Source of the DNA: a virus
Virus record (IMG/VR): IMGVR_UViG_3300023276_000007
Coordinates: 1-64,000 of that record
Length of the DNA: 64,000 nucleotides
Strand: one strand, 5' to 3'
The notes under the pieces were generated by a model. It ran no database searches. It was not told the origin of the DNA and saw only the letters and a list, made by a program, of their open reading frames with translations. Positions 10,548 through 44,400 of this stretch are shown one piece after another; the stretch's first letter is position 1; each line of letters starts with the position of its first letter. The position numbers were made by a program, and so were the translations under genes.

Positions 10548-11196
10548 TGAAATGATACAAGCCTCTTATGTTGCTGGCTTCCGTGATAGACTAGCTAGCG
10601 TGTTAGAAAAAGAGTCGGCCTATACTCCCTTCGACCATCTACTCAGACAGAAGCCATTACCAGAACCAGTAGCAGCGTTCCTAAGAAAGTACTTAGGGCA
10701 TATAGATGACGGCGGCGACACAGCTGCACTTTCTAAGATCCAACAAGAGTTCCTATCTGGTAAGCCATCTAAGGCTATACAGCCAGAGCTGCCAGGATTT
10801 GATGACCTACTTAATAAGCAGTCAGCCGAGAAGGTAGCAGGCCTAGCCTCTCTTCTAGCAAGGATGAAACAGCCATTGATACCTAGAGGCACAGTACCTA
10901 GGACAGGCGACAGGACAGTTTACAAGATACTTAACACGATAGACCCGCGACTAGGTAAGAAATATCAGCGCAAGGTAGAGTTCAGACCAAGCAAACCTTT
11001 CAGCGACTCTGATTCGATAACAGGTAAGTCAGTAGACCTCCCAGTAGTGGATCGTATGCTAGACGTAACAGAAGGTATGGATGACCTAGGCTATGGAAGT
11101 CTAAGACTACCAGCTAAGCCGTCACAAAATAGCGTTATTGATAAGTTAACGAACTATGCGCGGAAGCAAACTAAAAACATACAAGGGTACGTATGA
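10540..11196 (+). CDS. Hypothetical protein with N-terminal GF tag, 218 aa
   Basis: The N-terminus (MIQASYVAGFRDRLASVLEK) shows the 'GF.[DK][KR]' tag shared by many head-region proteins here. The remainder is mixed, with basic segments around residues 120-160, a K-x-A rich middle (NKQSAEKVAGL) and a basic C-terminus (YARKQTKNIQGYV). No enzyme motif. The stop overlaps the ATG of the 2H phosphoesterase gene (ATGA), so the two are coupled. Likely a virion or assembly protein. Confidence 0.6.
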   Translation: MNNEMIQASYVAGFRDRLASVLEKESAYTPFDHLLRQKPLPEPVAAFLRKYLGHIDDGGDTAALSKIQQEFLSGKPSKAIQPELPGFDDLLNKQSAEKVAGLASLLARMKQPLIPRGTVPRTGDRTVYKILNTIDPRLGKKYQRKVEFRPSKPFSDSDSITGKSVDLPVVDRMLDVTEGMDDLGYGSLRLPAKPSQNSVIDKLTNYARKQTKNIQGYV

Positions 11197-13207: not shown

Positions 13208-14047
13208 ATGACACAAGAAGAACTTAGAACAGAATTGCTGAAGGTTGCAGGCGGTCCGGAACTTACTCCGGAAGGTGAACTGTACCTTGATGGCTTCTCT
13301 AAGAAAGCACACGAGCTTATGGAGAAGGAAGCCCTACCTTTATCTGCCTTGATGAACATCGGGTGGGCACTACCAGGAGCTATATATGCTGGATCTAATC
13401 TTGCAGGTGCCGCGGGATCAGCCTTAAAAGGTGAAGGTACTGATGCTATGAGACAGGCAGGACTTGCCGGACTTGGTGCGTTAGGTTCGCTACCCTTCCT
13501 TGGCGGAGCAGGAGCTGGTGTAGGTCAGATAGGCCTAGCCATGCAACGTTTGGCCAAAGGTAAGAAGTCTCCAGCGTTCAGAGCAATGATGCCTGGAAAG
13601 TCTACCGGCGTTCTTGGACACAGTAGCAAATTTAGAAAAGCCCTTCGTTACCCAGGTACAAAAGTACTCCAAGGACTTACTAAAGTATTAGGACCGGAAA
13701 GAGCTACCGCACTAGGTAAGACTCTTGCTGCTAAAGGCAAGTACGTATCAGAGATAAAGCCTTTAAGATTTATGGATAGAGGTATTTGGGGAAAGACTCC
13801 GCCACCTATAGGTATGGCGGGCATGTTTGGCTCCATGATACCAATGATGGGTACCGACGCAGCAATAAGAGCTGTAACTACTCCTAGCATAAACAAACTT
13901 GAATCACAACTAGCTCAGTCTAGAAATCAGGTACCTAGCGTGCCTAGGCCAGTCAGCAGAACTGACGGGCTATTCTCTAAAGTAAAAGAGTGGGATAACG
14001 CTAACAACCCAAGCAGACAGTATGCTAGACAGATGGGGCTAATATAA
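13208..14047 (+). CDS. GF-tagged Gly/Ala-rich membrane-like protein, 279 aa
   Basis: ATG 13208 is preceded by TTTTAGGAAGG. Near the N-terminus is a tag-like helix (GELYLDGFSKKAHELMEKEA). Two hydrophobic Gly/Ala stretches follow (about residues 45-70 and 85-115), resembling glycine-zipper membrane segments, and a third near 195-215. The C-terminus is polar. No catalytic motif. This type of protein, repeated several times up to 17341, could be an inner-capsid protein ejected with the DNA and inserted in the envelope. The upstream gap 13149-13207 is AT-rich (TATATATTAATA) and may hold a promoter, but the -35 is weak. Confidence 0.6.
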   Translation: MTQEELRTELLKVAGGPELTPEGELYLDGFSKKAHELMEKEALPLSALMNIGWALPGAIYAGSNLAGAAGSALKGEGTDAMRQAGLAGLGALGSLPFLGGAGAGVGQIGLAMQRLAKGKKSPAFRAMMPGKSTGVLGHSSKFRKALRYPGTKVLQGLTKVLGPERATALGKTLAAKGKYVSEIKPLRFMDRGIWGKTPPPIGMAGMFGSMIPMMGTDAAIRAVTTPSINKLESQLAQSRNQVPSVPRPVSRTDGLFSKVKEWDNANNPSRQYARQMGLI

Positions 14048-26388: not shown

Positions 26389-28701
26389 ATGAATTTCAAT
26401 GACTTACTTGTCGATGAAAGTGTGCTGACAAAGCTCGCAGTCGAAGGACCTAACCAACAGCAGGTCGAGCAAGATTTCGGAAAAATGGCTTATGCCTTCT
26501 TGAAGGATAGAGCACCTAGCCTCATTACACACCTAATTGGGTTTGAAGTAGTTGAGGCAGAACCAGATGGGTCCCGAGCTGTAGGCCTTTTCGGTTTCGA
26601 CGTAGGTGGTAGATACTTCTATGTCCCAACGTTCTTCCTAAGTAATCAGATTAAAGGTATGGATCTTCTTTATGATAAAGAAGCCGACATGTTCTACCCT
26701 TTAAGAGAGAACTGGATCAACCACATTCTTAATAAGCAGACTATACAGTTAGGCGATGCCGCCCAACCAGGAGTCTCCCAGGATTTCGATACACCAGATT
26801 TTACAGCCATTTCAGATCCCCCAGTCGGCGGATCAACAAAACTTTCAGCTCATCAAGTAGGCCACGACCTAGCGGCTACTTGGAATCAGATACAGAAGAC
26901 TGTCGCTGACTCACTTGAGAATGATGACGCCTTTAAGTCAGCGTATGCAAATGCTGTACTTACTATGAAAGGTGAGCCTAACATTAAAGAAGCCAGTTTC
27001 CTTACCGACTTTATCGAGCATAAAGGCGGACCTAAGATGGCAGCAGCAGTTGCGCAGTCTTTACAGGACATCAACTTCATCAAAGCAGCAGCTGTGTTCT
27101 ATGAGCCTAGCGAACTATTGATTAATGACTTCAGTGAGGCACTAGCCCCTAAAGAAGCTAAGTCTGTTAAAATCGTTACAAGAGAACTTGTCGACGATTA
27201 CAGTAAGGACATGGATGATGATGACCGTACTCGTATCGTTGAAGACGGATTCACTCTTACAGATAACCGTGAAAAGGCTAATAAGTCAGACGTTTATACT
27301 GTTGACTATGCTAGCTCGCTACAGAATCCAGATTACTCTGGTGAATGTGACGTAGTTCTTTCAAGTGGTATCTGTACCCCTTGTTATGTAGCAACTACAC
27401 CTTTTGGCGCAACTAGCCCAGGACAAGTCTTAGTTATCAGTAAAGATACTAAGAGATTCTTCACAGCACATGAAAGAGTTGTTTTCGTAAGAGACGCCCT
27501 TAATGAGTCCGACAAGACTAATGCCCCTCTTTATAAAGGAGCTGTTGAGGTTGGAGACATGGAGCTTGATGCTACTTATGTACTTGTTAAGGAAAATGGA
27601 CAAACGTCTATACCTTTCAAGACTAGATCAATTACCTCAGAAGACGGCGATGATGTCCGTATCAGAGTTAACTGGATTAACAACTTAGACTTCGGTGACG
27701 ACTACGAGGGTACTGACTACCCAAGAGCGCACATTGCAGAAGCTAACCCTAGCTGCCTACCTTCTTACGGGGAAAGTTCTATTATACCTGTAGATCGTAT
27801 TGGTGGTTTAAGAGTATCCTCTAGAAATATGATTGTGCCTACTGAAACCTGGAAAGCTGTTAAGCTTACAGAGAAGAGACACAGCTCTATGGAAGGTAAG
27901 GTATTCTCACCAGGAACTTATTCAGAAGTTAAAGAAAATTTACTTAAGATGGCTTATCATGACGTTGTCATTGAGTCTATGGGTGAAGGCGTTGGTTACA
28001 ACATCAGTATTGACGGTTCTGTAGTCCAAGACAACCTAGATGCTAAAGAAGCGTCATTAGCGATTGCTAGAGACCTTGGTATCGATGCAGGTGAAACGCT
28101 AGCTATCATGGACGAGGTCAAACAGGCCGGAGCTACTAATAGACTAGTTAAGTTTGCTCAGCAGGTTTCTATGCCGGAAGTACCTCCACAGTATGTCGGT
28201 TACGACGCACACACTGGAGTACCTATCCATCCAGCACAGATTGACAGAGTAGAAGGCTCAACAGAACCATATACACCACCATACGTAGGACCTGGCGACA
28301 GTATCTACATGGGCGGTGAAGGTGAAAGACAGCAGCAGTCTGCACAAGGACAAGGCGGACCTAGCCCTACTGAATTATCACAGCAGGCAGCAGCAGCTGG
28401 CCAGCAACAAGTATTTGACCATAGTGTCGTCGGCGGTCTAGCGCAGACTTATGATGTAAGCTTTGCAGTCGACAGTTACGTCCCGGACCTTCTTAAGTGT
28501 CTAGACCGTATCGGTAGAATCTTATTCTTATTCTACTGGAAGAACGTCGACTTCGCAGAACGCTATGGCGATCAAGACCTTACCGCAATGGAAGATCAGC
28601 TACGAGGTGTCTTTAAGTCACTTGGCGATCTATCATTGAAGCTTAAGCAAAAGACTATTGACGCCGAAGGTACGGAGTTCGTAGACGGAGGAGCTATCTA
28701 A
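26389..28701 (+). CDS. Large hypothetical virion protein, 770 aa
   Basis: ATG 26389 follows ACAGGAGACAAT. The N-terminus (VDESVLTKLAVEGPNQQQ) shows the K-x-A pattern, as do several later points (NIKEASFLTDF, FIKAAAVF). The middle is beta-rich with one Cys-containing segment near residue 320 (CDVVLSSGICTPCYV). A Gln/Gly-rich linker at about 640-690 leads to a helical C-terminal domain (FLFYWKNVDFAERYGDQDL). No family recognised. The size, context and processing-like motifs suggest an internal head protein. It directly follows the polymerase cluster and might be packaged with it. Confidence 0.6.
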   Translation: MNFNDLLVDESVLTKLAVEGPNQQQVEQDFGKMAYAFLKDRAPSLITHLIGFEVVEAEPDGSRAVGLFGFDVGGRYFYVPTFFLSNQIKGMDLLYDKEADMFYPLRENWINHILNKQTIQLGDAAQPGVSQDFDTPDFTAISDPPVGGSTKLSAHQVGHDLAATWNQIQKTVADSLENDDAFKSAYANAVLTMKGEPNIKEASFLTDFIEHKGGPKMAAAVAQSLQDINFIKAAAVFYEPSELLINDFSEALAPKEAKSVKIVTRELVDDYSKDMDDDDRTRIVEDGFTLTDNREKANKSDVYTVDYASSLQNPDYSGECDVVLSSGICTPCYVATTPFGATSPGQVLVISKDTKRFFTAHERVVFVRDALNESDKTNAPLYKGAVEVGDMELDATYVLVKENGQTSIPFKTRSITSEDGDDVRIRVNWINNLDFGDDYEGTDYPRAHIAEANPSCLPSYGESSIIPVDRIGGLRVSSRNMIVPTETWKAVKLTEKRHSSMEGKVFSPGTYSEVKENLLKMAYHDVVIESMGEGVGYNISIDGSVVQDNLDAKEASLAIARDLGIDAGETLAIMDEVKQAGATNRLVKFAQQVSMPEVPPQYVGYDAHTGVPIHPAQIDRVEGSTEPYTPPYVGPGDSIYMGGEGERQQQSAQGQGGPSPTELSQQAAAAGQQQVFDHSVVGGLAQTYDVSFAVDSYVPDLLKCLDRIGRILFLFYWKNVDFAERYGDQDLTAMEDQLRGVFKSLGDLSLKLKQKTIDAEGTEFVDGGAI

Positions 28702-29741
28702 TGGATGCAGTACTCGTTAAAGTAGCTTTCATGCGAGGGGTCTTTGAAGACTCCTGTCGTATACCAACTAGAGCAGAGCTCAATTATGTGTCAGGCTTTT
28801 ATGATAAGCTTGCCTCTGTAACTATGCCTTTTGAAAAAACGGCAGCTGAGTCTATTGACTTTAACGAGTACCTCGACACCGCCTATGCAGTTATGTGTAA
28901 AGAGGCAGGAGCCTGGGACTGGTTTAAGCGTAAAGCTAAGGCAGTAGGTAATACTGTTTATAATGCAGCAGCCGACGCAGGTGATGCTATCGATAAAGGC
29001 TTTAATAAGGTTCATGACTACCTCGGTGATAAAATACACCAAACAGGCGTGTTTGACGGTGGCGGTAACAAACTTACTAACGCCCTAGCAGACTACGGTA
29101 ACAAAGGTTACCAAGGTATATTAGGGGATACTCTAAAAACCATGGGAACCGTGGCTACTTTAGGTTATGGTGGAGCAGCATTAGGCGCTGGTCGTGGTCT
29201 GGCAGCAGCTAGAGGACTTGCACCTAGAGTTTTATCATCAGCTAGAGGCCTTGCCCCTAGAGCCTTATCAGGTATGAAGAACATCGCTAGCGGTGCGAAG
29301 AATCTTGTAGGTAGAGGCCTGAGTAAGATGAAGAATTGGTGGAGAGGCGGTAAAGGTGGTCAAGGAGCTACTAATGCTGCTGATAAGCTTTCTAAGATGC
29401 AGCAGGCGAAGAAGTGGGGCGGTAGAGCTCTGAACACTTATTTCGTAGGCGATGCGGTGAATTCTCTTGGTAAGGGTATGGGTTGGTGGGGCGGAGCACC
29501 AGGACAACAACAGCCAGGACAACAACAAGCTATGGCAGGTGCCGCAGGACAAGGTCCAGCAGCACAAGGTCAGATTCAACAAGGACCTCGCGGTGTAGGA
29601 ATGTCAGGTGCAGCAGGCGCCGGTGGTATGGGGCTGGGTTCAGCACCTACAGCACCTAAAAATGACGCACGCTACAGTGGGTTCTTAAACAAGTTTAAAC
29701 TTGGCGCAGGTGCCGGCGGTAAAGGGAGCTTCTTCAAATGA
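28701..29741 (+). CDS. GF-tagged basic protein, 346 aa
   Basis: TAATG-coupled to the previous gene. Residues about 26-50 carry the tag (AELNYVSGFYDKLASV then FEKTAAES). The rest is basic and Gly/Ala-rich, with a duplicated segment (SARGLAPRV and SARGLAPRA) near residues 170-195, Gly/Lys-rich linkers and a Gln/Pro/Gly low-complexity stretch at 265-300. A hydrophobic Gly stretch at about 150-165 could be membrane-active. No catalytic motif. Likely an internal virion protein that also contacts DNA through its basic surface. Confidence 0.6.
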   Translation: MDAVLVKVAFMRGVFEDSCRIPTRAELNYVSGFYDKLASVTMPFEKTAAESIDFNEYLDTAYAVMCKEAGAWDWFKRKAKAVGNTVYNAAADAGDAIDKGFNKVHDYLGDKIHQTGVFDGGGNKLTNALADYGNKGYQGILGDTLKTMGTVATLGYGGAALGAGRGLAAARGLAPRVLSSARGLAPRALSGMKNIASGAKNLVGRGLSKMKNWWRGGKGGQGATNAADKLSKMQQAKKWGGRALNTYFVGDAVNSLGKGMGWWGGAPGQQQPGQQQAMAGAAGQGPAAQGQIQQGPRGVGMSGAAGAGGMGLGSAPTAPKNDARYSGFLNKFKLGAGAGGKGSFFK

Positions 29742-30166
29742 CAGACGAGAAGTACGTAGAGTATCACAAACAGGGTTTTATGGATAAGTGTGCTAGCGCA
29801 GGCCTTACTCAGGAACAGTCGGATGAACTCTATAAACAAGCAAATCCGTTTTTGACAATAGGCAAAGGGCTCTGGAACGCAGGTAAGAAGTTTCTTGGAA
29901 GCGGCGCTAGTAAAGGTAAGGACGCCCTTAAGTGGGTAGGTAAGAATAAAGGCAAGACAGCCCTAAACACGGCAATGTACGGACCACTTGCTTACCAAGG
30001 CATAAACATGGCAGGTAATGCTATGGGCCTCTGGGGTGGCGACGGACAACCACAACAACAACCTGGAGCCGCAGGACCACAAGGACCTCAACTACCACAA
30101 CGGGGCTACGGACAAGCTAAATTAAATGTTAGAGGAATGGGTGGCATAACGCCATACCTGACGTAA
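29738..30166 (+). CDS. GF-tagged small protein, 142 aa
   Basis: N-terminal tag (YVEYHKQGFMDKCASAGLTQ then LYKQANPF) is very similar to those at 17099 and 23782. A basic Gly/Lys region (KKFLGSGASKGKDALKWVGK) and a Gln/Pro/Gly-rich tail follow; the tail resembles that of the preceding 346-aa protein, suggesting a shared origin. The 28-bp gap to the next gene holds only a GATAGGAG ribosome binding site. Confidence 0.6.
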   Translation: MTDEKYVEYHKQGFMDKCASAGLTQEQSDELYKQANPFLTIGKGLWNAGKKFLGSGASKGKDALKWVGKNKGKTALNTAMYGPLAYQGINMAGNAMGLWGGDGQPQQQPGAAGPQGPQLPQRGYGQAKLNVRGMGGITPYLT

Positions 30167-30194: not shown

Positions 30195-31577
30195 ATGTTT
30201 AAAGACCGATTAATGGAAGCCCTAGATAGCGCAGTCAGCCACTTCAATGGTGGTCTTGATGACAACGCTTCTGTTGTGAAAGCAGCTTCCGACTATGATT
30301 TCAATAAGGATCAGACGCTAAGACTTATGGAGACGTATAACACTGCGAAGACTATAAGTTTCCTTAAGACAGCCGACGATAGGAGCCAAAACTTTTCTAC
30401 AGCCAAGCCAGACGATGTACTTCCTGCGTTATTCGATGCAGATGAAATACTTAAGTCAGCGGCTCCAGTAGAACACCATGACTATTCTTTCTATACAGAA
30501 GCACCAGAACATCAGAAGGTGGCCGGAGACTATTCTATTCTCGATAAGGCTGCTGCGGAGTTCAGCGACGACAGCCTTGAAAGCGTAAGCCACTATGCCC
30601 TACATAGAATAGGCGAGCTTAAGAAGACTGCAGGTTTCTGTGAGGACCAAAAAATTATGACTGGGGAAGTTTATGATAGAACTCTCCAAAAGATCGCACA
30701 GCACCTTAAACCAGATTACCTTGAAGAGTCTCTATTCCCACAAGCGGAAGTAGCCCTACACGTTATGTATAAGGATGCCGGAGATCACATAGCAGAAGAG
30801 CTTATGGCTTACCTACCTGCTGATACTAAGAGAGCGAACGCCCGTGATAAGGCAGTACGCATTTCTATCTTCGACGTTGAGCACCCAAGTCTTAATGGAC
30901 TACTTAAGGATGCACATGACTGTAGAACTCAATGGAGTAAGTTCGCTTCTCTAGAGCAGCACTACAATACCGAGTCTAAATCTTATGAAAAAGGATTTAA
31001 GAGAGCTATGCACCTCGAAACCGAAGACACAGACGCCTTCGATGAGATTAACGATATTTTTACTGAAGACTTCGCATCTGGGCTGAAGTCTGCACAAGAA
31101 GCCTCAGCCTCAAGTAGCACACTAGGTAACGTCACAGGCGACACCGCAGAAGCAGCTACTGCCGGATTAGGGTTAGCCCAGAAAGGCCTAGCTACTGTAG
31201 CTGACAAAGCAACCAGTATGGTTCCCATGCCAAAGGTTGACGTAGCAGGTGCACTAGCTAATCCGAAAGCACGAGAAGCTAAAGGCACTGCTAACAAGAT
31301 GAAGAATCTACAGCGCCAACTTATACTTGAAGAACTTATGGTGACAGATCCAGTACTTAAGGGTGAGAATCCTGACTCTGTTTCTAGAGCCTACCAAACA
31401 CTTATACAAATAGCCCCAGACGTTTCTCTTAATAGAGAAGTTGCGAGGTCTATCTTACGACAGTCTGTACAGTCTGTGGCAGTAAGTCCTTACGATGCTA
31501 AGTCTTGGTCTGACCTTGAAAATGAAATGCGTAAGAGACTGAAGCAGGGCGCGTCGGTACAGGAGACAGCAAGATGA
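30195..31577 (+). CDS. Helical head-region protein rich in K-x-A, 460 aa
   Basis: Mainly helical and soluble. Repeated hydrophobic-x-K-x-A sequences occur along the chain (SVVKAASDY, SFLKTADDR, EILKSAAPV, LDKAAAEF, LKKTAGF, LQKIAQHL, MYKDAGDH), more densely than in any tail protein here. One Cys-containing segment lies near residue 155. No enzymatic motif. The pattern suggests a scaffold-core or internal protein cut repeatedly by the prohead protease. It overlaps the next gene by 4 bases. Confidence 0.6.
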   Translation: MFKDRLMEALDSAVSHFNGGLDDNASVVKAASDYDFNKDQTLRLMETYNTAKTISFLKTADDRSQNFSTAKPDDVLPALFDADEILKSAAPVEHHDYSFYTEAPEHQKVAGDYSILDKAAAEFSDDSLESVSHYALHRIGELKKTAGFCEDQKIMTGEVYDRTLQKIAQHLKPDYLEESLFPQAEVALHVMYKDAGDHIAEELMAYLPADTKRANARDKAVRISIFDVEHPSLNGLLKDAHDCRTQWSKFASLEQHYNTESKSYEKGFKRAMHLETEDTDAFDEINDIFTEDFASGLKSAQEASASSSTLGNVTGDTAEAATAGLGLAQKGLATVADKATSMVPMPKVDVAGALANPKAREAKGTANKMKNLQRQLILEELMVTDPVLKGENPDSVSRAYQTLIQIAPDVSLNREVARSILRQSVQSVAVSPYDAKSWSDLENEMRKRLKQGASVQETAR

Positions 31578-32596
31578 AGATCCGCACCTTTAAAGAAATA
31601 GAGAACGGTGTCTACAAAGTTAAGATTCATGCAGAAGACTATAGTGAGCTTGAGAATGAACTCATGGCCAACTATGGAGAGCCTGAGATAAACACAGGCG
31701 GTTACTATGAAGCGGCAGCAGCAGTTGCGGCTTTACTTGATCTTAGCTTTATAGCCAATCCGGCGTCTACAGGGTTTGTAGCTGGCTTTGGTGATGTACT
31801 ATTCGTAGCTAACCCCTCGGAAGATGATACTGTTACAATCGGCGACGGAACCAACTCGGTCATATTTGAGTTCGGCACCTCCCTCACCGTAGGCGATGTC
31901 CTTGTCGATAACTCTGTAGACGCCCCCACTACTTTAGCAAACCTAGAAACAGCTATTGGGGCAAGCGCTCTTACAGTAAGTACTGTTATAAACGCAGGAA
32001 CAATTACAATTACTCACACCGATGCATGGGCTGACGTCACTATGGCGACAAGCAATGCAGTCGATATCACAGTATCAGACACGGCACATGTAGCTCCTCT
32101 CAATACGACGGTTAACATCAACGATGGTACTAACACTGTTATCTTTGAGATTAAACGATCTACAGAACCTTTGATCAACCTTAATGCGTTACCTGTCGAC
32201 AATGATACTGACGCAGCTACAACTCTTGCAGCTTTTGATACAGCAGTACAGGGCAGTACGTTAAACGTAGCTACTGATATAGCTGGTAGCATTTTGACTT
32301 TGACACATGTACTAACCGATGCTAACTTTATTGCAAGTACTTTAGATGGAGACGTTTCGCTAGTTGATACATCATTCGTTCCGCCAACAGAGCCAACATT
32401 TACTCTGCCGGACAATCTAGAGTTGATTAAGTCCGATTCACCCTTTGCACAAGGGTTTGATGAAAGAGACAGCGCGGATGCAGAAGCTAGGGCTGACTTA
32501 TGGACAGCAGAGGTTACAACTAAGCTTAAGGCCGCAGTAACTGCCCTGAGAGCTTTAGACGACACATTTACTGGCGAAACCGTGGAGACATATTAA
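31574..32596 (+). CDS. Head-region protein with two repeated beta modules, 340 aa
   Basis: Two similar beta modules lie in the middle: DTVTIGDGTNSVIFEFGTS with a following TLANLETAIGASALTVST, and TVNINDGTNTVIFEIKRS with TLAAFDTAVQGSTLNVAT. A related module occurs in the tail sheath (LTLNDGFNSVVFEFDNN, then LTNLLAAIQGSSLDAQ). The N-terminal 45 residues look like a separate alpha/beta cap, and the C-terminus is a charged helix. This is probably a surface or decoration protein; the shared module may be a common virion adhesion or packing domain. Confidence 0.55.
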   Translation: MKIRTFKEIENGVYKVKIHAEDYSELENELMANYGEPEINTGGYYEAAAAVAALLDLSFIANPASTGFVAGFGDVLFVANPSEDDTVTIGDGTNSVIFEFGTSLTVGDVLVDNSVDAPTTLANLETAIGASALTVSTVINAGTITITHTDAWADVTMATSNAVDITVSDTAHVAPLNTTVNINDGTNTVIFEIKRSTEPLINLNALPVDNDTDAATTLAAFDTAVQGSTLNVATDIAGSILTLTHVLTDANFIASTLDGDVSLVDTSFVPPTEPTFTLPDNLELIKSDSPFAQGFDERDSADAEARADLWTAEVTTKLKAAVTALRALDDTFTGETVETY

Positions 32597-32598
32597 TA

Positions 32599-33402
32599 AT
32601 GGATAAAGAAGCACAGATAGTAGAAGCCCTACAAGGCGCAGGCTCTAGTATTATGGACTCCCTAAAGAATGCCCCTGACAAGGTATCCGAATTCTGGGGC
32701 GGCTTATCAGATGCTCAAAAATCTACCGTACTAAATTCTTTAGCTGGAGCTGCCGCAGGTGGACTTGGTTCTGGCTTATTAGGTGGTGGGCTAGGAGACT
32801 CAGCAGTCGCAGCACTACTAGGTGGTGGCGGAGCTGCTGGACTTACAATGGGATACAATTCACTATTCGGTGATTCTAGACTTCCATCTGAAGTTGCAAA
32901 TAGTCCTGGACTCATTGACAGATCCCTAAGCACAGTAGGCAACCCTGTACTAGGTAATCCTGGTACTTCTATCGGAGGTGCTCTTGGTGCCTGGATAGCA
33001 GGTAAGCATGGCGGACTACCTTTCTCTGATAAAGGAACTGTAGAAGGATTCGAGCAATGGGCTAATGAAGCCAAAAATCGTAAAGTCCCTACAAAAGCAA
33101 ACCTCGGACTAGGTAAAGACATTGATGCTAAAAAACTTTTAGGTAAAATTAGAGATGCTGCAGGAACAGGCAGTGCTTTAGATCCTGAAGCAAGAGGTTT
33201 TAAAAACCTTGCCAAAAGAATTCTTTCCGGAGACTTCGGTGCGGTACTAGATCCTCAGTTAGGTACTAGAGGTATACTAGAGCAAGCCACACAAGGTACA
33301 GGAGCTTCTAGGTTCATGCCTAACAGAGCTGCTTGGATGGCGTTACCAGCAGGCTTAGCTGCCGGTGCTATGGCAGATAAATATGTACAGGGAGAGTTAT
33401 AA
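32599..33402 (+). CDS. Glycine-zipper protein, 267 aa
   Basis: The N-terminal helix (KEAQIVEALQGAGSSIMDSL) is followed by a long Gly/Ala-rich hydrophobic region at about residues 50-95 (SLAGAAAGGLGSGLLGGG ... GGGGAAGLTMG), a classical glycine zipper, and another at 115-135. The C-terminal half is more polar, ending in a hydrophobic Ala/Gly segment (AWMALPAGLAAGAMAD). No catalytic motif. TAATG coupling to the prohead protease gene. A membrane-interacting virion protein is the best guess. Confidence 0.55.
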   Translation: MDKEAQIVEALQGAGSSIMDSLKNAPDKVSEFWGGLSDAQKSTVLNSLAGAAAGGLGSGLLGGGLGDSAVAALLGGGGAAGLTMGYNSLFGDSRLPSEVANSPGLIDRSLSTVGNPVLGNPGTSIGGALGAWIAGKHGGLPFSDKGTVEGFEQWANEAKNRKVPTKANLGLGKDIDAKKLLGKIRDAAGTGSALDPEARGFKNLAKRILSGDFGAVLDPQLGTRGILEQATQGTGASRFMPNRAAWMALPAGLAAGAMADKYVQGEL

Positions 33403-34847
33403 TGAGCGGGATGACCAAACTGATCTATAACGACAGTATGATAGACAGTAACTCTGAGTTCAGTATCCGTATCGTAGAAGATACCTCTACCCTAACAAAA
33501 CAAGCTTCTGTCTTTTCTAAAGTAGCAAAAGACATCCAGCCAGATAAAGATCATGTAGGCATACACGTCATAGCACTTGGTGAGTCCGAGCGTTATGGTT
33601 TCAATAGAAATGGTGATGCCTTCACTAAGAAAGCCTGTATCGAATCTCACCCTACCTTTGTTAAGCATGGTCATGTATATGAGCATCACCAGAACAAAGA
33701 CCCCGAGAAGAAGCTAGGGGACATCGTTAAGTCTGCCTACAATGAAGATATGGGTCGTATAGAACTATTCATACATGCACATAAAGACAAGGCCGAGACG
33801 CACCTGAACAAGCTGGCATCTAGTGGTGAAGTACCAGTGTCTATGGCATGTAGAGTAAAGGAAGACCGCTGCTCCGTATGTGACCAGCTAAGATCTTCTA
33901 GCAAAGACCCTCGCCAGTGTTCTCATATAGCTATGAGTCTAGGTAAGACTGCAGAAGACGGTCAGGTCATTGGTACATATAATGACCACCCTAAATTTTT
34001 TGATATTAGTTTCGTCTATCGTCCAGCAGACAGAATTGCTTGGAACCTTAATAAGACAGCCAGCGCCGCAGGTGTTGATAGTGTTAAACTAGCAGAGGAC
34101 GCAGGTTTGTGGACTCCGCCAGAACTTATTATGGAAGACGGCGCACCTTTTGATAAGCTTGATATCTTGAAGAAGATGGCAAGCTTTGAAGATAAGTACC
34201 GCAGCATTGCACAGAGAGGACCTCAAGACCCTTGGGAAACTCAAATGTGGGAGCTACGTAAAGCCGCTTATGCAACATCAGTACCTGATGCTTATATAAG
34301 TGACCTGCGTAGGTACGAGCCCGAAGATGTACTTTCCAATTTGGCGAGGAACAAGGTTATACTTGATCCGGAATCTTATTGCAAGTACGCTATGGGTATA
34401 GACCTAGGCCAATTGCGTCCGCATTTGGGTGAGGTTAAGAAGGCCTGTGATGGACTCTTTACTAGATTGTTAAAAGAAGGTAAGGCGTATGAGGTTTGTA
34501 GTGACAGTTACTATGACTTTATAACACCATCGAAGTATGTAATACCGCAAGCAAGTACACTGGACGCTAAGGTGGCAATGGTTAAAAGTGCGTCGTCTTT
34601 CTCAGATGACTACGTATTTAAACGTGCTGTTGATGCAACCGCTTCAGGTTTGAATCCACAACTTAGTTGTAAAAGTGTACCATCAAGTACTATTTCTCAG
34701 GTTGCAAAAGTTGTGTCGGAGAAGTATGCTAGTTATAAACTGGCGAGTATTAACGCGATGCGGTATTTCCACCCATCTGAAAGTGTGGACCGCCAATTAG
34801 CCATATTGGCTGTTCAAAGCATGTTTAAGCAAGAATCAGGAGACTAG
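33402..34847 (+). CDS. Prohead maturation protease
   Basis: A protein of 481 aa. Residues about 45-180 resemble the herpesvirus-assemblin-like prohead protease fold (T4 gp21 / HK97-type): catalytic His91 in KHGHVYEHH and Ser147 in VPVSMACRV, spaced as in the family, with an acidic/His partner likely nearby. A CxxC...CxH zinc site (Cys157, Cys160, Cys173, His175) is inserted after the Ser strand. The C-terminal 250 residues are helical and dense in K-x-A (NLNKTASAAGV, LKKMASFED, MVKSASSF), consistent with self-cleavage. It is followed by scaffold, core, decoration and capsid genes, the expected order for a head-maturation unit. Confidence 0.8.
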   Translation: MSGMTKLIYNDSMIDSNSEFSIRIVEDTSTLTKQASVFSKVAKDIQPDKDHVGIHVIALGESERYGFNRNGDAFTKKACIESHPTFVKHGHVYEHHQNKDPEKKLGDIVKSAYNEDMGRIELFIHAHKDKAETHLNKLASSGEVPVSMACRVKEDRCSVCDQLRSSSKDPRQCSHIAMSLGKTAEDGQVIGTYNDHPKFFDISFVYRPADRIAWNLNKTASAAGVDSVKLAEDAGLWTPPELIMEDGAPFDKLDILKKMASFEDKYRSIAQRGPQDPWETQMWELRKAAYATSVPDAYISDLRRYEPEDVLSNLARNKVILDPESYCKYAMGIDLGQLRPHLGEVKKACDGLFTRLLKEGKAYEVCSDSYYDFITPSKYVIPQASTLDAKVAMVKSASSFSDDYVFKRAVDATASGLNPQLSCKSVPSSTISQVAKVVSEKYASYKLASINAMRYFHPSESVDRQLAILAVQSMFKQESGD

Positions 34848-34852
34848 GATAA

Positions 34853-36160
34853 ATGTCCACTTCAAAAACAATGAATGAAATACTCGCAGACACTAAGCAA
34901 TTTCTTAGCATCAAAGAAGCGAGTTTTGGTAAACAGGCCAAGGAAGAAGCTTTGGATAACCCCAACAGCATCCCTGGATCTGCCCATGATAAGCCTGTAG
35001 ACGATGGTGCATCTGCGCCAGACAAAGAAGTCCAACAGGAATTACCCCCGAACACTGCAAATAGCAACGCTGGTGCTACTGAAGCTGAAAAGCTTGAGTC
35101 AGGCCATGCTACAGATGCTACACAAGCTGTTCAGGATGTAGCCAAGAAACCTATGGTCAGTAGCGACTCAAACGCTAAAGAAGCTTCAGCTGGTGTTAAT
35201 GCACATGCTCAAGACCTTATTGACCTTATCGGTAACTTCAACAGCGAGAAGACTGCTGCGAGATCAGCCGTTGACGTTTTGACAGACGAGAAGTGTTCCA
35301 AGTGTGATAAGGAAGACTGCGACTGTGAAAAAGAAGACGATTCTGATGACTCCAAGGAAGCTTCGCAGGAAGAGTCCAAGGAAGCTACTGTTGGTGGTGA
35401 AATCGAACTTAGCAGAGATGTACTCGCTAAGATCGCTTGTACAATCCTTTCTACTGAAGAAGGTGTAAATTTCACAGAAACAATTTTACAAAAAGAAGCT
35501 GGAGCTCAGGCTGCTAGAGACACTATGGAGTTTCTAAACAAGCAAGCTGAAGACTCTGAAAAACAAGCTGCATATGATGCCGGACAGGAACATGCTGACC
35601 AGTTGATTAATGAAGCTGTTAAACAAGCTGAAGATGCTAGATTTGAGCAAGCTTATGAAGCAGGTCGTAATGACGCGATTAAGTTGGCACAAGCTACTTC
35701 TCCAGACGGCTCTATCGATTATAAAGCTCTCGGCGCTACTGTTGCTGCCGAAGCTGTTAAAAGAGCACAAGCTGAATTGATGGGTATGGACCCAGCAGCT
35801 ATGGACTCTGGTATCGGCGCTGACGAAGCTTTAGCTGGCATGGCTGGCGAAGGTGAAGAAGCAGGTGACGATATCGCTCCTGAGGAACTTGAAGCGGCAT
35901 TAGCCATGATGGTTCAGAGTGGAGAACTCTCGGAAGAAGAAGTTGCAGCTATTATGTCGCAGATCGGAGCCTCTGAAGGCGCTGAAGAAGCGGGTGAAGC
36001 TGTAGGCGCTATCGAGGGAGCTGCTCCAGAAGGTTTAGGCGAACTAGAAGGACTTGAGGGACTTGAAGAAGCTCCTGCAGGTATGGAAGTCGCTGCATCC
36101 GCTAGTGTTGAGAAGAGCTTTCTAAACGCGCTAGCTACGGTTAGAGCCAACAGCAAGTAA
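34853..36160 (+). CDS. Scaffold (core) protein
   Basis: A protein of 435 aa, acidic and predicted almost wholly helical, between the prohead protease and the capsid genes. A Cys cluster (KCSKCDKEDCDCEKEDD) lies near residue 145. I count by hand at least 13 K-x-A sites, which fits a scaffold that is fully degraded during maturation. A strongly acidic Gly/Glu segment occupies about residues 340-410. The C-terminus (VEKSFLNALATVRANSK) is basic and helical, the usual capsid-binding end of scaffolds. Confidence 0.75.
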   Translation: MSTSKTMNEILADTKQFLSIKEASFGKQAKEEALDNPNSIPGSAHDKPVDDGASAPDKEVQQELPPNTANSNAGATEAEKLESGHATDATQAVQDVAKKPMVSSDSNAKEASAGVNAHAQDLIDLIGNFNSEKTAARSAVDVLTDEKCSKCDKEDCDCEKEDDSDDSKEASQEESKEATVGGEIELSRDVLAKIACTILSTEEGVNFTETILQKEAGAQAARDTMEFLNKQAEDSEKQAAYDAGQEHADQLINEAVKQAEDARFEQAYEAGRNDAIKLAQATSPDGSIDYKALGATVAAEAVKRAQAELMGMDPAAMDSGIGADEALAGMAGEGEEAGDDIAPEELEAALAMMVQSGELSEEEVAAIMSQIGASEGAEEAGEAVGAIEGAAPEGLGELEGLEGLEEAPAGMEVAASASVEKSFLNALATVRANSK

Positions 36161-36170
36161 GGAGCTTACC

Positions 36171-36572
36171 ATGAGCAATGATAAAAATTTAGAAGAGATC
36201 CTCGAAAAGAGCGCTGCTTATGTCGAAGAGAGTCAGAAAGAGATTAGTAATCTCAACGCTGCACTTTCTAAGCAAGCTAGCGAAAAGCTAACAGAAAAGA
36301 AAGCTTTTGATCTCCAGGCCCAACGCACCGCTGCCATCTTAGCAGATCGCGGCGTTATTGAAGCAACTAAAGTTAACGACTTTGTCGACAAGCTAGCCTC
36401 CTCTCCGGTAGAGGCCTTGAAGACACTTGAAAAGTTAGCTAAACTTTTAGGTACTTCTTCGTTGGGAGGACCCTCTGCGGTAAAGGAGGCTTCGGCCTCT
36501 ACGGACACATGTCCATTTGTAGCAGAATTATTTCCAGAGCTGGGTAACTCCCGTTCTGGATTGGTAGATTAA
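36171..36572 (+). CDS. Head core/accessory protein, 133 aa
   Basis: Small helical protein between scaffold and decoration genes, with repeated K-x-A pattern (LEKSAAYVEES, LSKQASEKL, DKLASSPV, LEKLAKLLG, VKEASAST). It is probably a minor core component removed by the maturation protease. No other motif. Confidence 0.6.
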   Translation: MSNDKNLEEILEKSAAYVEESQKEISNLNAALSKQASEKLTEKKAFDLQAQRTAAILADRGVIEATKVNDFVDKLASSPVEALKTLEKLAKLLGTSSLGGPSAVKEASASTDTCPFVAELFPELGNSRSGLVD

Positions 36573-36595
36573 CATATTAAATTGAGGTAATTAAC

Positions 36596-37114
36596 ATGGC
36601 TAAAGGTCATTTTAACGTACTAAAAGGGGCTTATCCTTCTTTAGTGCAATTGGATAAAACCCTCAAGGTTAATGACGCTGTCACTAACCTTGTTAGAGGT
36701 AATTCCCTTCGAGTTGATACATCTGATAACACTTGGCTTAAGACTGCAGATGATGCAGCGTCTAAGGGTGCCGCTGGTACTCCTGGACCAATCATCTATT
36801 TTGCACTCCAAGACCAAGATCAAACAGATGTTGAGATGGCAGGCGCATTGACTGCACTTTCTTGCACAATGCCTATGGAAGTTGAAACGGATCAGTATAA
36901 CGGAACTCCTGCTTTAGGCGCACTACTTGTTGGTGGACTTGACGGTAAAGTTCAGGCTCATGCTGATGGAGAGACTGCGTGTGGCGTAGTTACTAAAGCT
37001 GAGTACCGTCGTTTTATCAACGATAAGACGGTCAGCGGAACTAGCACTAAAGGTGGATTCGGTATGGTATTAGGTTTTGCCACTATCTACTCACCTGACA
37101 TCGACGGAGTATAA
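36596..37114 (+). CDS. Capsid decoration/stabilisation protein candidate, 172 aa
   Basis: Beta-rich protein immediately before the major capsid gene, a place often taken by head decoration or stabilising proteins. It is rich in Gly, Asp and Thr, with a hydrophobic segment near the middle (GALTALSCTMPMEVET) and a C-terminus GFGMVLGFATIYSPDIDG. No membrane segment. ATG 36596 is preceded by TTGAGGTAA. Function by position and composition only. Confidence 0.6.
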   Translation: MAKGHFNVLKGAYPSLVQLDKTLKVNDAVTNLVRGNSLRVDTSDNTWLKTADDAASKGAAGTPGPIIYFALQDQDQTDVEMAGALTALSCTMPMEVETDQYNGTPALGALLVGGLDGKVQAHADGETACGVVTKAEYRRFINDKTVSGTSTKGGFGMVLGFATIYSPDIDGV

Positions 37115-37116
37115 TC

Positions 37117-38172
37117 ATGAGCGATAACATTCCAGTTTCAGTAATGAACAACAAAATTATGGAAGCGTTTAACGAAGGTAGCGATACCTCAATCAAGAAG
37201 GCACAAAGTGCCGCGACTGGTTTTACACGCATTCAGGTCCGTGAAGATTCTTTTACTTATAAGATCCTTCCTCCGGAAAAAGCTACAGATGACATTCTTA
37301 ATGTCTCTCTTGATAATGACATGCCTTCAGTTATTTGGGAAATCGAGCCAGATTCTCCAGGAGCTAAATGGGTACCACTTCAGTCTATTCCTGAAGGTGA
37401 GTATATCCAGGGTCGTCGTTACTTGATTCCTATGGCACGTATCGTTACTCCTAAGTTTACTAAGGACATCGACGAATTGCGTACCTACAGAATGGACCTT
37501 CGTAAAGTCCTTACTGACAACGCTATCAAAGACGGTCTCGCTGAGATTGACGGTAAGTGGATCGAAACCTGTGACGGTATCGTAATCGACCTTATGTGGT
37601 TGAACACTGCTACTGGCGCAACGACTGCTACAGTCTATGACCCAGATGCTGACACTTATACTGTTGCTAACCCTTACGCTGGTGACGGTGTTGCGGTTCA
37701 GACTCTTACAGGTAAAGTTCAGTACCGCAGATTCTCTGCTGGTCTTGACAGATCTGATATCGCCGAAGCTAAGAAGATGATGCCTTCTGGTTCACTCTTC
37801 CCAGGTTTCGAAGATAAGTTCCGTCTACGTAACTACCTAATGCTTATGAACGATGTTACTGCTCAGGACTTCCTGAAGTATCGTCGTGAAGACGCCGGTG
37901 GTGATCTATCTCAAGAATTGTTCGAGAACGGACTTACTCTTGAAAAGATCATGGGTATGAAGACCATTTACACTATTAAGGGCGGTATCGTTCCTGATGG
38001 TGTGGTTTATTTCTTCGCAGCTCCAGAGTTCCTTGGTAAGTTTTTCTATCTTACTGATTGGACTATGTACATGAAGAAAGAAGCTTACTTCATTGAATGC
38101 TTCGCTTACTGGCTTGGTGGATTCGCCATCGGTAACGTAGCTGCTGTCTGTCGTGCTGACTTTGTTGACTAA
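37117..38172 (+). CDS. Major capsid protein
   Basis: A protein of 351 aa in the standard place after protease, scaffold and decoration genes and just before a strong terminator. It has an N-terminal helical region that contains SIKKAQSAATGF near residues 25-36, a K-x-A site that would remove a short propeptide on maturation. Beyond it the chain has the pattern of an HK97-like capsid protein: a long spine helix region near 105-130, beta-rich P-domain strands, and a C-terminal A-domain with ECFAYWLGGFAIGNVAAVCR. No direct family assignment can be made by eye, but order and codon use leave little doubt. Confidence 0.8.
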   Translation: MSDNIPVSVMNNKIMEAFNEGSDTSIKKAQSAATGFTRIQVREDSFTYKILPPEKATDDILNVSLDNDMPSVIWEIEPDSPGAKWVPLQSIPEGEYIQGRRYLIPMARIVTPKFTKDIDELRTYRMDLRKVLTDNAIKDGLAEIDGKWIETCDGIVIDLMWLNTATGATTATVYDPDADTYTVANPYAGDGVAVQTLTGKVQYRRFSAGLDRSDIAEAKKMMPSGSLFPGFEDKFRLRNYLMLMNDVTAQDFLKYRREDAGGDLSQELFENGLTLEKIMGMKTIYTIKGGIVPDGVVYFFAAPEFLGKFFYLTDWTMYMKKEAYFIECFAYWLGGFAIGNVAAVCRADFVD

Positions 38173-38281: not shown

Positions 38282-39160
38282 ATGATCGACGTAGAAAATC
38301 AGAACTGGATGGAAGGCTTTGTAAAAGAAAGCGCGAACTACGGGCTCAACCCAGACCAGACAAAAGAATTATTGGCGAATGCCACACATTTTCATATGTA
38401 TAAAGAAAGCGAAGCATATCGCGACGGTTTCGATAAAGAAGCTCAAAGATTTGGCGGACTAGGTAAAGCTCTTAAGGGTTTATTTGGTAAAGGCAAAGCT
38501 AAAGCTCCTAAAGTTAACTCTCCCAAGCTAGGACCTGTCAAGCCATTAGGCGGCAAGGCACCTAGAGTTCCAGCAACAGGCGCAGGAGCCGCAGCAGCAG
38601 GTATGGGCGCTATTAAGCCGATAGGTACTACAGCAGCTAAGGCAAAGGCAACAGCCGGAGCAGGTGCCGCAGCAGGCGCAGGTAAGAAGATGAAAGTTAA
38701 CTCTGAAAGTCTCAATAAGGCCAAAGACACCGCAGCCGCTTCAAGAGGGGCAGGTAGTAAGAGTACTAATAGCCAGAAGTCCACTACACCTAAAGATACT
38801 GCCGGCGAAACAGCAGCAGCAGGCGCAGAACAGTCTAAAGGATTCTTCAGTGGTACAGGAAGCGGCCTCAAAACTATGGGTACACTAGGACTAGGCGGTG
38901 CAGGCATGTATGGCCTTGGTAAAGCTCAAGAAGGTATTGAGAACCTTAGTAAAGGTGAAGACGAACTTGCTATGCAAAGTATCATGGAAGGCGGTGGTAG
39001 CGAATCATCCAAGATGCGCCAAATGCAGATGATGCTTAAACAAAAAGCTCAACGTGACTTTAACGCAGCTAGAGACACTTATGGCTTTGGTAAGGACAAA
39101 GGCGGCGGCGGTAGAAACTTCTACGGTATGAAGGACATCTACTCTGGCGCAGGAATGTAA
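38282..39160 (+). CDS. Protein with two GF tags, Ala/Lys-rich, 292 aa
   Basis: Two tag copies in the first 60 residues: NWMEGFVKESANYGLNPDQT (about 8-27) and AYRDGFDKEAQRFGG (about 44-58). A long Ala/Gly/Lys/Pro-rich low-complexity core follows, then a hydrophobic segment (LKTMGTLGLGGAGMYGL) and a helical C-terminus (MLKQKAQRDFNAARDTYGF). The hydrophobic segment and C-terminus are paralogous to the gene at 39170. ATG 38282 is preceded by TAGGATAA. Likely a virion protein; the doubled tag is unique in the window. Confidence 0.6.
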   Translation: MIDVENQNWMEGFVKESANYGLNPDQTKELLANATHFHMYKESEAYRDGFDKEAQRFGGLGKALKGLFGKGKAKAPKVNSPKLGPVKPLGGKAPRVPATGAGAAAAGMGAIKPIGTTAAKAKATAGAGAAAGAGKKMKVNSESLNKAKDTAAASRGAGSKSTNSQKSTTPKDTAGETAAAGAEQSKGFFSGTGSGLKTMGTLGLGGAGMYGLGKAQEGIENLSKGEDELAMQSIMEGGGSESSKMRQMQMMLKQKAQRDFNAARDTYGFGKDKGGGGRNFYGMKDIYSGAGM

Positions 39161-39169
39161 GGTACTATT

Positions 39170-39505
39170 ATGGATGAACATTGGTTACAAGGATTCATGC
39201 ACAGAGCCGAAGAGAGAGGGGTGGCACCCTCTGTCGCACAATCCCTGCTTAAAAAAGCAGGTTTAGGCGGCAGTCTTAAAACCTTAGGTACGTTAGGCCT
39301 AGGCGGAGCAGGTGCGTTAGGCGGACTAGCTCTAAAGGATACTATTGAAGACGTACAAAAGTCAGACAGTCAGGTAGATCTAGAACGGATGTTAGAGCAG
39401 ACGCAAAGTATGTCTGAAGGTTCTAGAGACGCATATATAGCTAATTACCTGAAAGACTTAATGAAGCGTAGACACGACAACGCTAAAGACATTTATAATC
39501 TATAA
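39170..39505 (+). CDS. GF-tagged protein, paralogue of 38282 gene, 111 aa
   Basis: Tag near the start (HWLQGFMHRAEERGVAPSVA, then LLKKAGLGG), then LKTLGTLGLGGAGALGGL, nearly identical to the hydrophobic segment of the upstream gene, and a matching helical C-terminus (LKDLMKRRHDNAKDIYNL). It looks like a compact version of the 292-aa protein without its Ala/Lys linker. Probably a duplication product. No other function visible. Confidence 0.6.
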   Translation: MDEHWLQGFMHRAEERGVAPSVAQSLLKKAGLGGSLKTLGTLGLGGAGALGGLALKDTIEDVQKSDSQVDLERMLEQTQSMSEGSRDAYIANYLKDLMKRRHDNAKDIYNL

Positions 39506-41476: not shown

Positions 41477-44400
41477 GTGACTTATGTAAAGCCACAAGTT
41501 AAAGTATTTCAAGAGTTTCAAGCCGCTCCGGAAGCTGTCGTTCAGAACCTGAACGCGTTCGTATTCGGACCGCACTATCAACTCTTTAGATACGCAGAAT
41601 CCTCTGAGAAAGCTTTAGTTAGCTTAGGGGATTATGATAAAGATAACGACACAGATTACTTGTGGCCTAATCAGCCGGCATTGTCTGTCGTTGACCAATC
41701 TTTCACCAAACTTTACGCAGACGATGCGCTTTTAAAGTATATCAGCTTTGCTGAGTCAGCGGTTAACCCGTTGGTTCTTACAAGTGCTAGTGTACGGAAT
41801 AAGCTTAGAGCTGCTCCAAGAATAGGTGCTACTACCTCTGCGGGTAACATTGACGTCACAGTCAGTGGTGTTCACAATGGTGGCGCAAATCTTCCGGAGA
41901 GCTATTACGTCTATCCTGCAGAAAGTTTCATTATCGGCTCAGCAGCCGGTGAATTAAATTATATTACGACTGACGGACTTAAAGGATCTATTGCAGTTCC
42001 TGCAGATGCTACGTTAGCTAACAAGGTTGTAGAAGGCCCGGACGGAGTCGCTTTAGACTTTGACCTTACTGGATTGGCAGTTAACGCTCCAAGACAGATT
42101 GTCGTGGCAGGTGCTTCATCAAGCTTCACACTTACACAGTTGAAGAGCAGAATACCTTCACACATTGCAGATGCAGAAGCAGCCGACGCTCTTAGAGTAA
42201 CGGTAGCAGATGCAGCACTCTCGGTTACATATAACCCAGGAACAAGCAATGAACTCTCTGTCAGCTTCGACATTGGCGGCGGTGGTGACTCAGTCGCTGC
42301 GGCTAGAGCTGCTGTTGTTGCAGTTACAGACATTCTCGAAGATTGGGAAGTAAGTGATATCTCTGGCGACGGACTCGATGCAGTTACTACTGTAGAAGAC
42401 CAAGACGCTGCAGACCTTGTTGCTGCCACTACTAACATCTTAGATGATTATGCGTTCTACACAGTATTCGCTAACTCAATTATCTTTAAGACTGAGAATG
42501 GGTTCAACCGTTCAGCTGGTCTTTTCAAAGACGTCGAAGTCGGTGACAGAATACGTCACGTCGTAACTCCAGTCAGCACAGGTGTCCCTGAAGAAGTCTT
42601 CAGCACAGTTGTTGGTTTCGAGCCAGACATCCTTAACGCTACAGTTTCTGACCAAACACCTGCCGACGACAACGCAGAGAACCAACTAAGCACAGATTTA
42701 AGTGCTGGTGATTCTTCCGTCCTAGCTGGTGGTGGTGATAATCAGAACACTGGACTTCTTGTAGGCGGTAACGCAGCAATCTATCTTCTCGATCAGACTG
42801 CTACTTACGATGACGCTTTCGGAGATCAATCACAAGGTGTAAGCGATCTAGACATCACAGTTACGATCGTAGCAGGCGGAGTTGCCACTAGTGGTAATGT
42901 CACTGCTAACGTCTCTAATGCTTCAGGAACGTACAACCGTACAGGTGTTCCAATAGTTGCAGATGCTAACTACCCTGATGGTAGTATCTATATCGGTAGC
43001 AACATGGTTCTCGCCTTTGACGCTACAGGTGATACTTCTGGATCAGGCGGTGGACCTGACAGAGAATTCAAAGCTGGTGACAGTTATGAAGTATCTGGAG
43101 TCCTTACCCCAGTTAACGCTGTTAACAATCTTATTGTCGAGGGTTCTTACTCTGGTCAGCAAGATACTACTTACAGACTAGAAGTTGTTCGTGGCGGACT
43201 TTTCGATAGAACAGTTGTTGCTCAGCCAGGTGTTAACTACTTCGGTAGAGGCCATAACGCTGTCTACGCTAATACAGTTATTACTTCTGCAGGTCAGCCT
43301 GCTGATACAGAAACCCTCACATTAAATGATGGGTTTAACAGTGTTGTCTTCGAGTTCGATAACAATGCTACTGTTTCTGGTACTAACGTTGCTGTAGTTA
43401 TCGGTGGAACTGCCGCAGACACACTAACTAACTTACTAGCAGCTATCCAAGGAAGTTCTCTTGATGCTCAGGCAATCGAGACTGTCTCTGGTACTGAGAT
43501 CACAGTTACGTCTAACAACCTAGCTAACGACCTCACTTCTGCAGGAACACCAACTAACTACTCTACAGTAGATACCGCACTATCAACTCCGACAGCCTCT
43601 ACGGTTATCGCAGCAGTAGTCGACATCTCTCAGTGGACTGGTGGTGATCTTGATGACGAGTATCGTCTAGTTGTTACTAAAGCAGGTGGTAACCTTGTTT
43701 CGACTGAGTTCGCTCTTGAGTCTAACGCTGGTGATAACCAGAACGGTATTTCCTTCCCAGCCTTCGCTACATCTGTAGACGTCGGTATCAAAGGACTTGC
43801 AATCACTCTTACTGATGGTGGCGCTGTTAACCCAGCCTTCGCTGTAGGTGAGACTTTCGTTCTAGACTTGAGACTCTCAAGACCTAAGCTTAAGATTACA
43901 GACTCTGCAGGTATCGATCAGCAGACTAACGTTGTAGTTGCAGATGGTGACATCATTAACGTCGGACTTAACGGCGTAACTGTTGAATTCCCTTCTAACA
44001 CCAACTCTAACGGTGGAATCGACATTAACGGCGGACTAAGCTTAGGCGACGTCTGGACTATTGAAGCTACTGCAAAAGCAAACGGACCTCTTAAGACTCT
44101 TGTTCTTAGTGAGCCTGTTTCTGATAACGTCGCAGCTGCAATCGACTCAGCAGGAGTTCCGGTACCAATACCTGACCTTTTCGCTATCGACCTGTTCTTG
44201 TTTAGCAACTCAGTCACTATCCCAAGTGAGCAGCGTGATCCTAACGTAGCCGCTGGTTTCTTTAACTGGCAAGGTATTGCAGCAAGCTTGACATCTAACT
44301 CTGGAATAACACTCCAGGATAGCAGATGGGTAGACCCAAGTGACAGTTCTATGCCTTACCTTGAATTATGGCAAGGTTCACTTTATGTAGAGTACAGAGC

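Follow-up and report, generated by a model that had tools for sequence, protein, structure and literature searches.

A Lys-x-Ala motif as the probable cut site of a gp21-like prohead protease in a large tailed phage

In a 64,000-nucleotide stretch of viral DNA (positions 1–64,000 of IMG/VR record IMGVR_UViG_3300023276_000007, hereafter the window; other parts of the record were read as further stretches), the proteins of the head core carry the pattern Lys-x-Ala (K-x-A) far more often than chance allows. We propose, with a probability of about 0.88, that K-x-A, or more fully about [L/M/F/I]-x-K-[E/Q/V/T]-A-[S/A/G/E/Q], is the motif recognised and cut by the phage's own gp21-like prohead protease, encoded at 33402, which would release itself, trim the capsid protein, chop the scaffold and core proteins and remove short tags, with the bond after the Ala as the most likely point of cleavage. 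The motif most likely marks the cut points of scaffold, protease and shell proteins in this phage and in its unstudied relatives. The original prediction that K-x-A marks the cut site is supported, in that every consequence testable at sequence level was observed.

In this scheme the protease would be packed in the prohead together with the scaffold, the core proteins and tagged cargo, and would free its own catalytic domain at K33-x-A and K218-x-A. The capsid protein would be trimmed behind K27-K-A29, after A29, the scaffold and core proteins would be chopped at many scattered sites, and short N-terminal tags would be taken off the packaged proteins. Cleavage most probably falls just after the Ala, with Lys at P3, Ala at P1 and a small residue at P1′. 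That proteins are cut, at which bond, and what becomes of the pieces we infer from features that are observed directly: the enrichment, its register, the flanking logo, the fixed positions and the fold similarity.

Enrichment of K-x-A in head-core proteins

Expected numbers of K-x-A sites were obtained from shuffles of each protein's own composition; proteins are named here by the first position of their genes. Against this expectation the protease (17 sites against 3.6, z 7.6), the scaffold candidate 34853, the core candidates 30195 and 36171 and the head-side protein 26389 are all dense in the motif, and the tail sheath, which served as negative control, has a single site (Table 1). The count of at least 13 sites in the scaffold made earlier by hand proved exact, and the earlier description of the core proteins and protease as dense, and of the 1412-residue sheath as holding one site only, agrees with the present counts. 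When all residue pairs at distances of 1–8 were scanned in six core proteins (the five named here and the one at record position 84566), K-x-A ranked top with 75 occurrences against about 21.3–21.4 expected (z 11.7), and the pairs ranking next were its own flanks (K..S, L.K and L...A). Register controls in the same proteins were not raised (22 observed against 21.1 expected for K..A, 17 against 21.4 for A.K). For the extended motif, [LMFI].K[^GPDN]A[SACGQE], the counts were 25 in core proteins (1.1 expected), 21 in other head-side proteins (3.8), and three each, at background level, in tail (2.4) and nonstructural proteins (1.5). The excess of K-x-A in head-core proteins is confirmed as lying far beyond chance. 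The protein at record position 84566–85612 is encoded outside the window and far from the head module; its 13 sites (3.0 expected) give it a motif density like that of the core candidates.

Searches with the capsid protein and the protease led to about 150 IMG/VR loci and to Salmonella phage Arash and Vibrio phages D69, D148 and D181. A nearly identical locus (L004), from this phage itself or a close sister, cannot count as independent of the window. About 130 related loci, including Arash and D69, carry the same K-x-A signal in the same genes, and in most loci K-x-A heads the ranking of enriched pairs over the whole head region or stands close to its top. Counted over non-redundant proteins (clustered at 70% identity), the core proteins of the clade hold 2609 sites against 1023 expected (z 49.6): 704 against 273 in the protease family (72 proteins), 1051 against 404 in that of 30195, 242 against 60.5 in that of 36171, 231 against 112 in the scaffold family and 381 against 173 in that of 26389. 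The sheath family has 75 where 115 are expected, other connector and tail families have 0.5–1.2 times their expectation, and the capsid family shows no overall excess (55 against 51). The controls KA, K..A, K...A and A.K lie near 1 in most families and at about 0.7–1.4 in the core families, well below K-x-A. An excess that is specific to core proteins and to one register, conserved across the clade, is what a cut motif predicts, as is the depletion in tail proteins.

The flanks of the 2609 core sites follow a logo of about [LMFI]-x-K-[EQVT]-A-[SAGEQ]. Before the Lys, Leu, Met, Phe or Ile is favoured at −2 and Glu, Val or Thr at −1; between Lys and Ala stand Gln, Val, Thr or Glu, with Gly, Pro, Asn and Asp rare; after the Ala come Ser (2.6–3.4-fold), Ala, Glu or Cys, with Leu, Ile, Lys and Pro rare, and then Glu or Asp. 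About 230 K-x-A sites in tail and connector families have no such flank preference. Because the preference extends to both sides of the point after the Ala, it looks like the footprint of a protease. The same blind scan applied to T4 gp67, gp68, gp21 and gp22 placed I-x-E first and L-x-E third; it returned the established gp21 motif, so that core sequences by themselves are enough for the method to pick out a genuine cut motif. The 25 pairs most enriched in the core proteins of the clade are headed by K-x-A and include no distance-2 pair ending in Glu; this absence points to a different specificity and is no argument against the gp21 fold family.

Fixed sites in the protease and the capsid protein

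The AlphaFold model of the protease (mean predicted local distance difference test score, pLDDT, 86.8) comprises a confident catalytic β domain at about residues 51–204, a linker at 215–223 and an all-helical C-terminal domain at 227–472. The linker, which contains K218-T-A220, has pLDDT below 50 and is disordered, flanked by confident domains. A Foldseek search of the PDB returned chains of T4 gp21 (5JBL) first and second (probability 0.95 and 0.91, E 0.056 and 0.068); the next, unrelated match had a probability of 0.07, leaving gp21 as the sole credible one, and in BFVD many prohead proteases were matched at E<1e-4. In sequence searches the PDB offered no relative of the protease that could be used. 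All 54 homologues compared (below 70% identity) have H96 and S147, which fit a predicted catalytic pair; S147 is paired with serine 140 of T4 gp21 in a weak profile alignment. C157, C160 and C173 are likewise invariant in the 54, and H175 is conserved in a smaller alignment; this CxxC...CxH cluster inside the catalytic domain is perhaps a zinc site.

Two protease sites, at K33 and K218, are kept in the great majority of homologues (Table 1; 44 and 50 of 54, respectively, when no positional tolerance is allowed), and none of the others is common to much more than half of them. These others shift from homologue to homologue whilst the count per protein stays high, which is expected if the protein need only be choppable. 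Most exceptions at K33 keep the Lys and swap the Ala for Gly or Ser (K-x-G, K-x-S), as a small S1 pocket would lead one to expect. The two best-conserved sites flank the catalytic domain, the C-terminal one within the disordered linker, and are thus placed as self-release sites would be; fixed sites of this kind are a further prediction of a cut motif.

The window capsid protein is modelled with the HK97 fold (Foldseek probability 1.00 to HK97 heads), and its Arash homologue belongs to phrog_2522, a major head protein. The stretch SIKKAQSAATGF, noted earlier near residues 25–36 of the capsid protein, is indeed there, with S25-I26-K27-K28-A29. In all but two of 35 non-redundant capsids (33), a K-x-A stands 13–15 residues ahead of the conserved R-E-x-x-F at which the shell fold begins; of the two full-length exceptions, one has R-S-A and the other E-S-A at that place. 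A cut motif predicts such a fixed site right before the capsid fold, and it predicts avoidance in the mature protein, which is also seen: outside the fixed site the capsids hold about half the expected K-x-A (22 of the 55 observed sites, with an expectation near 50). A PDB sequence search with the capsid protein returned only phage G gp27 (E about 1), and with no close relative there is no solved mature N-terminus to borrow.

Arash and D69/D148/D181 have a homologous protease and a homologous capsid protein (27–28% identical to that of the window). In these phages the capsid site reads LVKEAG or LTKEAG, at the same place as in the window, and the core genes are dense in K-x-A. Arash gp222 (L008:16039-17511), the homologue of the window protease, was annotated merely as a structural protein in a proteomic study that included no cleavage analysis (PMC10585845); it matches the PHROG ‘head maturation protease’, and we identify it as such. 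The peptide coverage of the Arash capsid protein (gp226), 86.6%, is compatible with loss of 28 residues and is not diagnostic; the coverage values as a whole look unreliable, as two peptides give 100% for many proteins.

Further afield, extension of the motif to Bacillus phage G and the Bxz1-like actinophages is at most suggestive. Phage G was not counted as support, because its capsid protein gp27 has no K-x-A (R-V-A instead); its unannotated gp19 (L165) is a homologue of the window protease with eight K-x-A against 2.5 expected. In the actinophages Bxz1/Pleione, Stormageddon, E3, Pupper and ScoobyDoobyDoo, K-x-A is raised 1.9-fold in a protease–scaffold fusion, and K-L-A is conserved in the capsid N-terminus; R-x-A and other pairs are raised too, so that the extension to actinophages is only suggestive. 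Bxz1-like mycobacteriophages and related Gordonia and Rhodococcus phages have a distant relative of the protease with a very long fused extension, about 900–1370 residues in total.

N-terminal tags and the head and tail genes

A window set of tagged-like proteins chosen by a K-x-A near the N-terminus is circular, and we therefore drew enrichment from unselected sets only (head-side non-core proteins, and all non-core proteins). The first 40 residues of the window's head-side non-core proteins hold 21 K-x-A sites against 8.4 expected, with counts near background later; tail-side proteins have 2 against 5.0 in the same stretch. Among 778 non-redundant proteins of the clade outside the core and tail, the extended motif occurs 104 times against 8.0 in residues 1–15, 72 times against 6.4 in residues 16–30 and at about 2–6 times expectation beyond, in a set that includes some diverged core proteins. 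Residues 1–30 of 389 tail proteins contain no copy of it. This N-terminal bias in other head-side proteins is as a cut motif predicts. Eight tagged window proteins, a set chosen after seeing the data, have no K-x-A after the last N-terminal site, where about 15 are expected. The earlier claim that the tags usually end in L.K.A holds for some; several end in D-K-x-A or C-K-x-A, and the tagged protein 10540 lacks K-x-A throughout residues 1–70. From their sequences these N-terminal segments fit short tags like the capsid targeting sequences of T4, which are 10–20 residues long (PMC5694885).

One further product, of 651 residues (window 11193–13148), has an RNA-ligase-like domain (phrog_755), a K-E-A tag (TIIKEAAKG) at its start and 12 K-x-A sites; tag and sites together suggest a ligase packed in the head. 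RNA ligases are present in Arash virions by mass spectrometry (PMC10585845).

The genes for protease, scaffold candidate and capsid protein follow one another in this order, which relatives keep. Scaffold and core are candidate names, given from gene order and composition; PHROGs and Pfam searches gave no match for the scaffold, core or capsid proteins and weak matches only for the protease. The sheath is identified by its PHROGs match to phrog_279. It has 1412 residues, whereas the gene in the equivalent position of a relative (L006) encodes 684, and its sheath-family match is confined to residues 1192–1342, so that most of the protein is extra sequence.

Table 1. Head and tail features of the window, with observed K-x-A counts (composition-based expectation in brackets)
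Feature	Position	Strand	Remarks
Prohead (head maturation) protease, 481 residues	33402..34847	+	17 K-x-A (3.6 expected)
Predicted self-cut site K33-Q-A35, before catalytic domain	33498..33506	+	K-x-A in 46/54 homologues
Predicted self-cut site K218-T-A220, linker	34053..34061	+	consensus L-x-K-V-A-S; K-x-A in 52/54 homologues
Scaffold candidate, 435 residues	34853..36160	+	13 K-x-A (5.2 expected)
Small core candidate, 133 residues	36171..36572	+	6 K-x-A (1.6 expected); family 4.0-fold
Core or inner-head candidate, 460 residues	30195..31577	+	13 K-x-A (4.3 expected); family 2.6-fold
Unannotated head-side protein, 770 residues	26389..28701	+	13 K-x-A (3.4 expected); family 2.2-fold
Major capsid protein, 351 residues, HK97 fold	37117..38172	+	Foldseek; PHROG of Arash homologue
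Predicted capsid maturation site K27-K28-A29, predicted mature start Q30	37195..37203	+	
Tagged head-side protein	38282..39160	+	sole K-x-A at residue 52; none after (4.8 expected)
Tagged head-side protein	39170..39505	+	sole K-x-A at residue 28 (LLKKAG)
Tagged head-side protein	28701..29741	+	K-x-A at 7, 36, 46, 67; none in last 277 residues (3.8 expected)
Tagged head-side protein	29738..30166	+	K-x-A at 17, 33, 61, 73
Tagged head-side protein	13208..14047	+	K-x-A at 12, 32, 40; none after (2.2 expected)
Tail sheath, negative control	41477..45715	+	1 K-x-A (3.5 expected); clade-wide 0.65-fold

Alternative explanations and known head proteases

The position of a bond cannot be read from sequence alone, and K-x-A might be a protease motif cut elsewhere, for example after the Lys, the least replaceable residue among the exceptions at the N-terminal protease site. 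We regard this as unlikely: selection extends past the Ala to P1′ and P2′, favouring Ser/Ala/Glu at +3 and Glu/Asp at +4 and disfavouring Leu, Ile, Lys and Pro, the Ala position is replaced by Gly or Ser, as for a P1 residue, and P3-x-P1 with Ser at P1′ is the layout of SPN3US gp245, A-x-E↓S (PMC10052503). A motif that is bound by scaffold or shell during assembly and left uncut, for docking or capsid targeting, would account for its occurrence in proteins expected within the prohead and near the N-termini of head-side proteins. Such a role is a good deal less probable still, as it leaves unexplained the two fixed sites around the catalytic domain, one of them in a disordered linker, the way in which mature capsid and tail sequences avoid the motif and the small-residue preference after the Ala. 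That the enrichment is a by-product of Lys- and Ala-rich helical composition or of common descent we consider barely credible, although the scaffold is Ala-rich and helical and the homologues share ancestry. Both the register and the logo controls contradict it. Lys-to-Ala pairs are raised at i,i+2 only and not at i+1, i+3, i+4 or as A-x-K, whereas helix periodicity would favour i+3 and i+4; site positions turn over among homologues whilst counts persist, and tail K-x-A sites lack the flank logo.

Several observations weigh against cleavage at K-x-A by this protease. The window capsid protein keeps a second site, K321-E-A323, which the original prediction had not listed, and its AlphaFold model places K27–A29 within an N-terminal helix. 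Six of the 17 protease sites lie in the N-terminal or catalytic part, and several of these would need protection by folding. Similarity to gp21 is modest (Foldseek E just 0.056, with a weak profile alignment to the T4 protein), and the models are of single chains, silent on substrate binding. Nonstructural proteins have a mild K-x-A excess, 1.46-fold, matched by A-x-K, and the homologues, being of shared ancestry, are not independent sequences. Peptides of gp222, gp223 and gp220, the Arash homologues of the protease and core proteins, are still present in the virions of that phage (PMC10585845), and degradation may accordingly be incomplete.

If cleavage at K-x-A is true, a gp21-like prohead protease would depart from the ‘after glutamate’ rule that holds for the large-phage enzymes characterised so far, and one could read straight from a genome which proteins are scaffolds, which are packaged in the head (and possibly injected) and where mature N-termini lie, a help in a clade where most head proteins lack annotation. 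It would also bring into the phage branch of the fold an Ala↓Ser type of specificity that until now was characteristic of herpesvirus assemblin. Arash and D69 are cultivable, which makes these ideas immediately testable. Searches of open-access papers turned up no description of a prohead motif of the K-x-A type.

T4 gp21 cuts at I/L-x-E sites in gp22, gp67, gp68, gp23, gp24 and internal proteins. The window system resembles it in the best PDB match of the protease model, in the protease–scaffold–capsid gene order, in the many motif copies in core proteins, in the N-terminal capsid site and in the short N-terminal tags. It differs in that T4 cuts after Glu whereas the window motif is K-x-A followed by a small residue, and in the large helical C-terminal domain and conserved Cys-Cys-Cys-His cluster of the window protease. 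By predicted fold, invariant His and Ser and gene order, the enzyme thus appears to be of gp21 type, with a motif that does not end in Glu. The proteases of T4, phiKZ, 201phi2-1 and SPN3US are all described as cutting C-terminal to Glu (PMC5694885); as the characterised large-phage relatives cut in this way, Lys-x-Ala would be a new specificity in a known kind of enzyme. With phiKZ gp175 and SPN3US gp245 (A-x-E, S-x-E) the window phage shares the P3-x-P1 layout of its predicted motif and the preference for Ser at P1′ (PMC10052503), as well as, by prediction, the C-terminal self-cut and long multi-site propeptides (PMC10052503, PMC5694885); both key motif residues are exchanged, for Lys and Ala.

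Published work has proposed that assemblin and the gp21-type proteases, as one family of folds, share ancestry. The predicted bond in the window phage, Ala followed by Ser or Thr, resembles the release and maturation sites of herpesvirus assemblin, YLQA-T and VQA-S (PMC4498786), and assemblin too has a release site directly after its catalytic domain, comparable to K218-T-A220, but it has no conserved Lys three residues ahead of the bond. The likeness lies in the predicted Ala↓Ser site, and we do not class the window protease as an assemblin member; the similarity in specificity may reflect convergence. Tentatively, and with more doubt than confidence, we can picture that in large tailed phages of a widespread clade, so far uncharacterised, a single Lys-x-Ala↓small ‘zip code’ would both label the proteins of the head interior and mature the head, with an assemblin-like Ala↓Ser specificity, ancestral or regained, unlike the Glu-cutting enzymes of T4 and phiKZ.

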